The notes under the pieces are model-generated. The model saw nothing but the letters and a program-made list of their open reading frames with translations. It was not told the origin of the DNA and searched no databases. A DNA stretch of 64,000 bases from assembly GCF_025791835.1 (NCBI RefSeq), contig NZ_JAOXLP010000002.1, positions 261,764 to 325,763 of the forward strand. The letters are read 5' to 3'. This DNA is from Roseomonas xinghualingensis. GTDB lineage: Bacteria > Pseudomonadota > Alphaproteobacteria > Acetobacterales > Acetobacteraceae. Position 1 is the stretch's first letter. Each line of letters begins with the position of its first letter. Positions 8,526-11,996 of the stretch are shown in pieces. Position numbers and translations under genes: made by a program.

Positions 8526-11219
8526 TCAGGCATCCGCCCGGAATGCGAGCGCCGCCAGTTTGGCGATGTCCGGTCCCACGCTCCGCACGCCTCCCACCGT
8601 GCCCCCGCCGAGCAGCGTGACAAGACCCGACAGCTCCACTAACCGCGCCGAGGCGGCCCCCGCCGCCCGGCTGGCTCCCACGACGCCGCCGAAAAGCGCG
8701 GTGAGATCGATCGGGGTGGCGGCGCCGGCACTTCCCGTCGCGCGATAGGCACCCACGGCCGCCGCCAGTGCCTGTGCCGAAAGCGCCGGCTGGCTGGGCC
8801 GGACGCTACTGGAAAGCACGGGAGCGGAGGCGCTGTCGTAAACAGCGGCGTCGCGGATGACGCGATCGAAGCCGGATTCCGCGGCATTCTCCATCCGCAG
8901 CGCCGCCAGCGCATTGATCGAGCGCGTGCCGGTGGCACGGGCCGTGATTTCCAGCGCCGGGCTGTCGGTGATGAGGCCGTTGGCGCCGGTGCTCCGCGCC
9001 ACCACCAGCAGATCCTGCGCGCTGCCCTCCGGCCCGGCCTGGAAGAGCAGTGCCGCGAACTCAGCCCCGGTGAAATCCGTGCGTCCCGTCACATCTCCGC
9101 CGTTCAGGATCAGCCGTCCGCCAGCCGTGCCGGAAGGATCGTCCCGCATCGCCACGCGATAGGTCATGCCTTCGTCGAAGCTGCCTCCCGCCGTGTCGAA
9201 AAGCGTGTTCATCGAGAACAGATCGCCCGCAGCCGCGGTGAAGTCACCCACGGCCGAAAGCGCCGGAGCCTTCTGCCCGGCCAGTGGCGCGTGGACCGCC
9301 GCATCCTGCGCGATGCCCGCATAGGCATCCTCCGGCGAGGCATTCCGCAGCGCGGGCAGCGCATTGACCGAGCGCTCCCCAGTCACCGAGGCCGTGATCT
9401 GCACCGCGCGGCTGGCGATGATACCCGTGCCATCGGGCTTCGAGCTGCGCGCCACCACCAGGATGTCCTGCGCGCTGCCCGTGGCGCCCGCCACGAATTG
9501 CAGCGCATTGAATTCCTCCGCCGTGAATCCGATGCGATGGGTCACCTCCTCCCCGTTCAGCATCAGCCTCGTGCCCGAGGCCAGATCCTCGTCGCGCAGC
9601 GCCACGCGATATCCCGTCACCTCCACCGCCGCGCTATAGGGCGAGGTGAACAGGTCCCGCAGCGCGTATTGGTCCCCGGCGGCGGCGGTGATGTTCCCCG
9701 CCGTGGAAAGCCCTGGTGCCACCTGCCCGGAAAGCGGCGCGTAGAGCATGGCCTCCGATGCCACCCGCATGAACCCGGCATCCGCCGCGCCTGGCTCCAC
9801 CGCCGTTCGCAGCGCCTCCGCCATGTTGAGGGAGCGCGTGCCCGTCACCGCCGCGCGCAGTGCCGCCGGGGCACTGTCTGCTATGGCCGTCAGCCCGCCA
9901 GCCTCATCCGGCGTACCGGCGCGGGCGACCACCAGGATGTCCTGCGCCCCGCCCTCAGGCCCCGCCACATATTGCAGCGAGAGGAACTCCATCGGCGAGA
10001 AGTCTGTGCGATGGCTGACATCCTCGCCATCCAGCAGCAGCCTGCCACCTGGGGCGCCGCCAGGATCGTCCCGCAGCGCCACGCGATAAAGCGCCACCTC
10101 CACCATGCCGCTGGTGGGAAAAAGATCGCGGATGGAAAGCGCATCCCCGGCCTTCACCGTCAGGTCACCGGCATCGGATATTGCGGGCGCCTTGCGCGCA
10201 CCGGTTGCCGCGAAGATTGTCGCCTCCTGCGCGACCCGCAGGAACCCCGCATCCGCATCGCCAGGATCGACCACGCTCCGGAGCGCCGGCGCCGCATTGG
10301 CGGACCGCGCCCCGGTGACAGCCGCCGTGATCTGCGTTGCCGGGCTGTCCACGATATGGCGCCAGACGCCAGCCTCATCCTTCGTGCCGGCCCGCGCCAC
10401 CACCAGCAGATCCGCCGCGCTGCCATCGGGCCCGGCCATAAACTGCAGGTTGATGAATTCCTCCGGCGTGAAATCGATGCGGTGGGTGACGTCCTCCCCC
10501 TCCAGCATCAGCCGCGCGCCCGGCACGGAGGCATCGTCGCGCAGCGCCACGCGATACAGCGCTGTCTCCGCCCCGGCGCTGAACAGGTCGTGCAGCGCCA
10601 GGCTGTCGCCCGCCTTCAGCGTGATGTTGCCGACGGTTGAAAGGGAAGGGGCCTTCCGGTCGCCATAAGGCGTGAAGACCGAGGCCTCCTGCACGAGTTT
10701 CACGAAATCCGCATCCGCCTCCCCCTCCGGGGCGCCCATCCGCAGCGCGACGGCGGCCTCGATGGAGCGGATGCCGGTGACATGCGCGGTGATCTGCACC
10801 GGATCGCTATCCGCGATGTTGCGCCAGACGCCCGCCTCATCCTTCGTGCCGGAGCGAGCCACCGCCACGATCTTCTGCGCGCTGCCATCGGCGCCGGCGA
10901 TGAATTGCAGCTCGTTGTAGTCCATCGGATCGAAATCGACCCGGTCCGTCACATCCTCGCCGCGCAGCATCAGCCGCCCGCCACCTTCCCCGCGCAGTGC
11001 GATCCGCATCACCGCCGCATCCGGCGAGCCGAACAACTCCCGCACCGAATAGCTGTCGCCCGCGCGGGCGGTGAAGGAACCGGAGGGCAGGGGCACGCGG
11101 ATATCCACGATATCCGTCACCGTGGAACCACCCGCGCCGCTGGAAGGGGCGGCGGGCGCATAGCCGCTGGGGTAGTTCGTATAGAAGGCGGCGTTCGCGC
11201 CGCTGATGGCGCCGGACAC
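8526..11219 (-). CDS. Large repeat protein with five ~152-residue repeats, probably secreted or surface-located
   Basis: The protein has 897 residues and no recognised catalytic domain. Five related repeats start near residues 48, 198, 352, 509 and 659. Each runs: A-GD-hydrophobic-LF, a YRVALRDD strand, RLMLNGEDVT, DFTxEEFxxLQFxAGPxGSAQDLLVVAR, ITAxVTGxRS (pieces quoted separately). This layout resembles beta-sandwich repeats of RTX-type adhesins and serralysin-like proteins; that link is by eye. A ~32-residue linker with conserved ALR and DAGF joins each pair. No classical signal peptide is seen (MSGAISGANAAFY), so a type I or other non-Sec route is possible. The last ~120 residues are Ala/Gly-rich and unlike the repeats. 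It is monocistronic and its function is unknown. Confidence 0.7.
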   Translation of the reverse strand: MSGAISGANAAFYTNYPSGYAPAAPSSGAGGSTVTDIVDIRVPLPSGSFTARAGDSYSVRELFGSPDAAVMRIALRGEGGGRLMLRGEDVTDRVDFDPMDYNELQFIAGADGSAQKIVAVARSGTKDEAGVWRNIADSDPVQITAHVTGIRSIEAAVALRMGAPEGEADADFVKLVQEASVFTPYGDRKAPSLSTVGNITLKAGDSLALHDLFSAGAETALYRVALRDDASVPGARLMLEGEDVTHRIDFTPEEFINLQFMAGPDGSAADLLVVARAGTKDEAGVWRHIVDSPATQITAAVTGARSANAAPALRSVVDPGDADAGFLRVAQEATIFAATGARKAPAISDAGDLTVKAGDALSIRDLFPTSGMVEVALYRVALRDDPGGAPGGRLLLDGEDVSHRTDFSPMEFLSLQYVAGPEGGAQDILVVARAGTPDEAGGLTAIADSAPAALRAAVTGTRSLNMAEALRTAVEPGAADAGFMRVASEAMLYAPLSGQVAPGLSTAGNITAAAGDQYALRDLFTSPYSAAVEVTGYRVALRDEDLASGTRLMLNGEEVTHRIGFTAEEFNALQFVAGATGSAQDILVVARSSKPDGTGIIASRAVQITASVTGERSVNALPALRNASPEDAYAGIAQDAAVHAPLAGQKAPALSAVGDFTAAAGDLFSMNTLFDTAGGSFDEGMTYRVAMRDDPSGTAGGRLILNGGDVTGRTDFTGAEFAALLFQAGPEGSAQDLLVVARSTGANGLITDSPALEITARATGTRSINALAALRMENAAESGFDRVIRDAAVYDSASAPVLSSSVRPSQPALSAQALAAAVGAYRATGSAGAATPIDLTALFGGVVGASRAAGAASARLVELSGLVTLLGGGTVGGVRSVGPDIAKLAALAFRADA
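8895..11078 (-). repeat. Five tandem in-frame ~456-bp coding repeats
   Basis: The repeat units of the 897-residue protein lie at about 11078-10743, 10628-10278, 10166-9807, 9695-9345 and 9245-8895, read on the minus strand. Shared markers are the -AGD- start, YRVALRD, the GEDVTHR/DF block and the closing TGxRS. Units are clearly diverged at the DNA level, so this is an old duplication and not an assembly artefact. Confidence 0.75.
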
Positions 11220-11276
11220 GGGGGAACCTCCGCGAAACCCCGCGAGGCTAGCCCCCAGCCCCTAACGCCGCATGAA

Positions 11277-11996
11277 TCACCCCACGCGCAGCAGGGTCGG
11301 CCCGTGGCGCCGCAGCCAGTCCTGCGCCGCGTCCCGATGCGGCGTCAGCCGCTCCACATGGGCCCAGAAGCGGGAGGAATGGTTCAGTTCCCGCAGGTGT
11401 CCGACCTCATGCGCCACCACATAGTCGAGCACCCAGTCCGGGGCCATCACCAGCCGCCAGGAGAAGGCCAGCGTGCCATCCGGCGCGCAGCTTCCCCAGC
11501 GGGACCGGGTGTCCTTCAGCGTGATGCGCCGGACCTTCACCCCCAGCGTCGCGGCATGGCCGGCTGCCAGCACCGAAATGCGCCGCTTCGCCTCCGCCTT
11601 CAGGAAGTCGGCCACACGGCGGGCCAGGAACTCCTTGTCCCCCGCCACCACGATCTCCCCATTCCACAGGATGGCGGGGCCGCGCGTATGGGGATCATGC
11701 CGGATGACATGCGGCACCCCGCCCAGCGGCACGCGCTGGCCCTCGGCCAGCGGCACGGCGGGGGCAAGGCTGCCCAGCCTTTCCTTCACCCAGGCCGCAT
11801 GGGTGTTCAGCAGGGCCATCCCTGCCTTGCGGCCGGAACGGGGCGGCAAGGTCACCACAACCTCCCCTGCGCGCGGATCGATCCGGAGCGAAACCCGCCG
11901 TGCCCGGGTAGAGCGGTTCCAGCGCACCGGAGTCGGCGTCGGCAGCGCCAGCGGATGGGCGCGGAGGGGGACGCTCTCGATCTCGTTATGTTCCAT
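11277..11996 (-). CDS. YgjP-like (DUF45/SprT-type) metal-dependent hydrolase
   Basis: This 239-residue protein belongs to the YgjP/DUF45 group of putative zinc metallopeptidases. The metal site is VVAHEVGHLRELNHSSRFW, with the HExxH motif HEVGH and a downstream His that fits the third ligand. The preceding SRWGSCAPDGTLAFSW is the other signature of the family. The N-terminal half is a beta-rich region without known function. No signal peptide is seen, so it should be cytoplasmic. It is not obviously linked to its neighbours: the cupin operon upstream ends in a terminator before it. The in vivo substrate of this family is not established. Confidence 0.88.
   Translation of the reverse strand: MEHNEIESVPLRAHPLALPTPTPVRWNRSTRARRVSLRIDPRAGEVVVTLPPRSGRKAGMALLNTHAAWVKERLGSLAPAVPLAEGQRVPLGGVPHVIRHDPHTRGPAILWNGEIVVAGDKEFLARRVADFLKAEAKRRISVLAAGHAATLGVKVRRITLKDTRSRWGSCAPDGTLAFSWRLVMAPDWVLDYVVAHEVGHLRELNHSSRFWAHVERLTPHRDAAQDWLRRHGPTLLRVG

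Follow-up and report, generated by a model that had tools for sequence, protein, structure and literature searches.

A five-unit immunoglobulin-like repeat protein without RTX repeats in Roseomonas xinghualingensis, a candidate extracellular matrix or coat protein

Introduction

The Rap proteins of Rhizobium leguminosarum, such as RapA2 and RapD, are extracellular alphaproteobacterial proteins with cadherin-like (CHDL) domains of 100-120 residues that are exported by a type I system and encoded by dispersed genes; the substrates of the PrsDE exporter of this species likewise come from dispersed genes, and some of them are exopolysaccharide-binding CHDL proteins of non-RTX type (PMC9298526). 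The extenders of MpIBP, MhLap, AhLap and SiiE are tandem β-sandwiches of ~100 residues that form a reach-extending region (PMC7493085). In this study, a 64,000-nucleotide stretch of the R. xinghualingensis genome (contig NZ_JAOXLP010000002.1, positions 261,764 to 325,763), hereafter the window, was analyzed with respect to one gene on its minus strand, which encodes an 897-residue protein composed largely of five tandem units. The units are predicted to be immunoglobulin (Ig)-like β-sandwiches and, as judged from profile comparisons, are remote homologues of the Ig/cadherin-like domains inside RTX proteins.

The likeness to the Rap proteins was drawn from their description, without comparison with a Rap sequence. 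There are two CHDL domains in RapA2 and a single one in RapD, and their folding depends on calcium, whereas the window protein has five units of 147-157 residues, none of which is matched by the Pfam cadherin or Ig models. Compared with the RTX adhesins, whose extenders have short calcium-holding linkers, the window protein has long linkers that are predicted to be partly helical, and no ligand-binding tip, retention module or RTX repeat was recognized in it.

The gene and its five units

The coding sequence, its likely ribosome-binding site and the units, delimited by the envelopes of a unit profile, are as follows.

8526..11219, minus strand: coding sequence of the 897-residue five-unit protein (GTG start; stop codon 8526-8528)
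11227..11231, minus strand: GGAGG, likely ribosome-binding site, 7 nt ahead of the GTG start
10650..11090, minus strand: unit 1, residues 44-190
10188..10649, minus strand: unit 2, residues 191-344
9717..10187, minus strand: unit 3, residues 345-501
9267..9716, minus strand: unit 4, residues 502-651
8817..9266, minus strand: unit 5, residues 652-801

The minus-strand open reading frame (ORF) contains no internal stop, and the plus strand of the same interval has two stops in frame 1. Since the full-length frame is kept open in six genomes, including that of R. xinghualingensis, changes fall most often at third codon positions and the ratio of nonsynonymous to synonymous substitution rates (dN/dS) is ~0.26-0.31 in the five pairs tested, the gene is real and under purifying selection. 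It is present as a single copy in its own genome, and an exact GGAGG stands at roughly the same upstream place in four of the seven genomes whose upstream sequences were compared.

The original prediction of five ~152-residue units filling most of the protein was borne out by the envelopes, which span residues 44-801 (84.5% of the protein) with a mean length of ~152 residues, and the motifs of the proposed layout (A-GD...LF, YRVALRDD, GEDVTHR and TGxRS) are present. All ten unit pairs match in BLASTP with 41-57% identity and E values of 3e-24 to 2e-59, which excludes chance as the source of their likeness. In the model of unit 2, an Ig-like β-sandwich, the fold of the bacterial Ig/cadherin-like superfamily, covers approximately residues 191-301 and is followed by two predicted helices in the linker. 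The units are thus predicted from the model to have the β-sandwich fold that had been proposed, with ~40 residues of partly helical linker in each.

Relation to RTX proteins

Profile comparison indicated homology to bacterial Ig/cadherin-like domains. The closest of these lie in tandem in two RTX proteins of genome G685, a subtilase and a second protein, for which a profile search gave E 9e-10 and HHalign a probability of 96.1% (shuffled controls reached at best 1.6%); weaker matches occur in G569 and G646. The RTX-protein domains themselves stand near the Pfam families Cadherin_4, PKD_4 and Big_9, all below the cut-off. However, these RTX proteins bear nonapeptides, and the domain copies of G685 a loop of the DPNGD/DANGD type (DPNSD in one); the window units lack both, and the domains of the RTX proteins are without the linker of ~40 residues that each window unit adds.

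As a separate observation, the G685 subtilase (L148:5205-8534) combines RTX repeats with three tandem Ig-like domains that fall below the Pfam model cut-offs. In G569 (L061:10800-16000), a giant RTX protein adjoins frames that by eye resemble a translated CRISPR array, beside which are ORFs that we take to be Cas-like.

The original prediction had likened the repeats to those of both RTX adhesins and serralysin-like proteins, and the first half of this comparison survives as the remote homology described above, whereas nothing resembles serralysin. A Pfam scan of the window protein at E values up to 10 returned only a sub-threshold DUF6324 and no RTX repeat (PF00353), in line with the predicted absence of nonapeptides, and NCBIfam gave no serralysin match. 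That the protein is a classical RTX adhesin or serralysin-like exoprotein is therefore scarcely credible, despite the homologous Ig domains of RTX proteins: its C-terminus is also not of the RTX type, and the five neighbouring genes scanned include no type I genes, which are common beside a substrate gene but not required. Membership of this family was refuted, with PF00353 repeats, a typical C-terminus and adjoining type I genes all absent.

Terminal regions

Conserved regions flank the units on both sides.

11160..11186, minus strand: N-terminal motif FYTNYPSGY, residues 12-20 (family consensus ~PFYxxxPxGY)
8529..8816, minus strand: Ala-rich conserved C-terminal region, residues 802-897

The motif is followed by a linker rich in Ser, Gly and Ala, a layout found across the family; in the aligned family N-termini, G is present in 13/13, F in 11/13 and Y after G in 11/13. 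In line with the predicted lack of a signal peptide, no hydrophobic N-terminal segment was found in the window protein (the highest 19-residue Kyte-Doolittle mean is 0.48), and the six full orthologues likewise lack a hydrophobic N-terminus, contain no Cys and have a pI of 4.6-5.3. Five of the 15 family pieces counted contain Cys; by inspection, this lies ahead of the likely start in L039 and L040 and out of frame in L043a and L043b, and L016a has two Cys out of frame and one genuine Cys in unit 1. The L041 piece in this count starts inside unit 1.

A protein without a recognized export signal might be retained as a periplasmic or cytoplasmic scaffold. This is rather unlikely, since the Cys-free acidic Ig repeats and their kinship to domains of exported proteins point outside the cell, and a periplasmic protein as a rule needs a Sec or Tat signal. 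A conserved motif within a signal-less N-terminus, ahead of a flexible linker, could alternatively serve as an export signal recognized by a type III apparatus, flagellar or otherwise. We consider this most unlikely: no type III signal is known to resemble PFYxxxPxGY, and no flagellar gene is among the five neighbours scanned, the carrier genomes not having been searched for flagellar genes.

The C-terminal 120 residues, originally described as rich in both Ala and Gly, are enriched in Ala (25% versus 18.7% over the whole protein) but hardly in Gly (12.5% versus 11.0%). As to the suggestion that they form a secretion signal or anchor, the tail is conserved and family-specific: the C-terminal region is 87-118 residues long as delimited, and its profile gave strong matches only to this family in the 397 genomes searched. 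For RTX substrates, [FLI][VAI] has been reported as the last two residues (PMC8861453), and a DFxFx ending occurs in four of ten RTX loci of the genus, some of which may be truncated where the locus stops. Because the tail has neither this pattern nor DFxF, the suggested secretion signal or anchor at the C-terminus is not supported.

Export machinery

Our favoured reading, in which we place about as much belief as doubt, is that the protein is an extracellular structural, adhesive or matrix protein, similar to the Rap proteins, and that a type I system whose genes lie at another place in the genome exports it. The R. xinghualingensis genome encodes a PrtD-type ATP-binding cassette (ABC) protein (652 bits; cut-off 510) adjoining a type I HlyD protein (364 bits; cut-off 209). 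The pair lies at L096:6201-9307 on contig C42, a different contig from that of the repeat gene, and no substrate gene was recognized by eye in the surrounding 18 kb; this resembles PrsDE of R. leguminosarum, the substrates of which are dispersed.

Several findings weigh against this type I reading. The PrtD-type ABC protein is above the cut-off in all seven genus carriers, but also in seven of the eight non-carriers, and in only one of six distant carriers (two of the six genomes are <90% complete). Furthermore, RTX repeats occur in all 15 genus genomes, and none of 12 family C-termini ends in [FLI][VAI] or DFxF. As the ABC protein is found in most non-carriers and several distant carriers are without a clear one, the type I route is only inferred; the extracellular location, the matrix or adhesion role and the calcium independence of the protein are put forward in the same spirit.

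Family distribution and evolution

Within the Roseomonas-type genus, 7/15 genomes carry the gene, named records among them being R. populi and R. nepalensis. A sequence search of 60 genomes gave seven matches, the window's own genome included, all within the genus (0/45 outside it). The search among Acetobacteraceae that had been proposed was performed with a profile of the six orthologues, which found relatives in 12 of 397 genomes, five of them outside the genus (G100, G115, G144, G165 and G203). Among 385 genomes of the class, the unit profile gave seven with E up to 0.01, namely the genome of the window, G494 with a clear five-unit protein, and G435, G437, G569, G593 and G646 with weak matches, and a broader profile (14 units, five from G494) gave E up to 0.001 only in G494 and G685. 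Altogether, relatives are spread over seven of the 15 genus genomes, five other genomes of the bacterial family to which the genus belongs and one from a different family.

No relative was found among plasmids, 50,697 phage records or IMG/VR viral contigs, and the family has no name in Pfam, NCBIfam or PHROG. Phage virions commonly carry Ig-like domains, and one relative (L039) gave weak PHROG matches, the best to a virion structural protein (5e-6), so that an Ig-decorated structural component of a phage, tailocin or gene-transfer agent was considered. However, the window protein has no PHROG match and the neighbours examined include no phage genes; together with the absence from the phage and viral collections, this makes such an origin barely conceivable, and the candidate was effectively refuted. 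With neither an enzyme nor a phage structural family matching, the protein stays without a recognized function, as first described.

Members of the family have in common the short N-terminal motif and the family-specific C-terminus, and the number of units between these is usually five. Five units are present in the six full orthologues and in L039, L041 and L060; L040 has three, L042 at least five (contig end), and across a broken frame G008 has five and G144 four. The broken members (L016:8422-11126 in G008 and L043:6925-9333 in G144) each consist of two overlapping or neighbouring frames, which may reflect either a draft-assembly error or a pseudogene.

When species of the genus are compared, units that occupy equivalent positions share 70.6% identity, compared with 49.3% between positions, and therefore the five units are old in the genus. 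In five relatives from other genera, the mean identity among the units of one protein is 80-97%: those of L039, L040, L041 and L042 are 87-97% identical on average, compared with ~50% in the window's genus. The four of these that were compared with the window protein show no clear one-to-one correspondence with its units, which suggests, from these identities, separate homogenization or amplification of the units in other genera. The units of L060 are 49% identical to each other. A side observation on L039, L040, L041 and L042 is that the unit number is mostly five and the length nearly constant despite this apparent repeated homogenization.

The same distribution bears on an S-layer-like or fibre-forming coat, in which the Ig units would tile or polymerize and the N-terminal peptide or C-terminal tail would assemble or anchor them after export by any route. 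This is unlikely, since the gene is patchy and accessory, Lys is scarce (11-20 per protein), no known S-layer anchor was recognized and no Roseomonas S-layer was found in the literature, judged by titles. The Ig domains of the S-layer protein SbsB invite comparison, but no sequence similarity to it was found.

Genomic neighbourhood

The five nearest genes scanned encode YgjP, cupin, DHDPS, TctC and ECH, and no secretion, type I or flagellar genes are among them, consistent with the original description.

11277..11996, minus strand: YgjP-like metallopeptidase (PF01863), upstream neighbour on the strand of the repeat gene, at a distance of 57 bp

The YgjP-like gene adjoins the repeat gene upstream in six of the seven genus carriers (G009 has the repeat gene elsewhere) but is probably not functionally tied to it, because YgjP is found in 15/15 genus genomes. 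Nine regions were compared: in five (G001, G002, G009, G010 and G014) the YgjP-TctC neighbourhood is kept without the repeat gene and with no remnant of a unit (best E 0.09), and the remaining four have different neighbours. No mobile genes were noticed by eye beside the repeat gene. It is accessory, occupies a fairly constant site and has no operon partner that would indicate its function.

The YgjP-TctC interval varies between species (L129-L133, L011, L012, L013 and L015), with genes coming and going; those named by eye include a short-chain dehydrogenase/reductase (SDR), an Na+/H+ antiporter, a DctA-like protein, an epimerase and others. In G007 (L013:6020-8240), two genes with a low GC content at third codon positions, presumably encoding a glycosyltransferase-like and a DUF1796/papain-like protein, separate the repeat gene from the genes that normally adjoin it and look like a recent acquisition.

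Proposed role

The product, a member of a small family without a name, probably has an extracellular place in the coat or the biofilm matrix. In the Rap-like reading, it would be synthesized as a Cys-free acidic chain without a Sec- or Tat-like signal and would leave the cell in a single step, for which a PrtD/PrsD-type type I system from elsewhere in the genome is the most likely route, to reside in the coat of the cell or the matrix of the biofilm. There it would form a rod or string of five Ig/cadherin-like β-sandwiches joined by partly helical linkers, with a conserved short peptide at each end, and the Ig units may supply reach or serve as binding sites for polysaccharide or protein. In this it would act similarly to the CHDL proteins of R. 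leguminosarum and to RTX adhesin extenders, although it has no RTX repeats and lacks the acidic loop of DxNGD type that its RTX relatives possess. A more speculative proposal, which we regard as decidedly doubtful, is that the two terminal peptides of this mostly five-domain family specify export and assembly by a route other than the RTX C-terminal signal, for example into a fibre or coat in which PFYxxxPxGY docks on the next chain.

The gene thus encodes an accessory candidate surface protein that is invisible to the domain libraries used, in which the Ig domain of RTX proteins appears to have been re-used in a non-RTX family. If the protein is exported, it raises the question of which signal a non-RTX chain of this kind uses.
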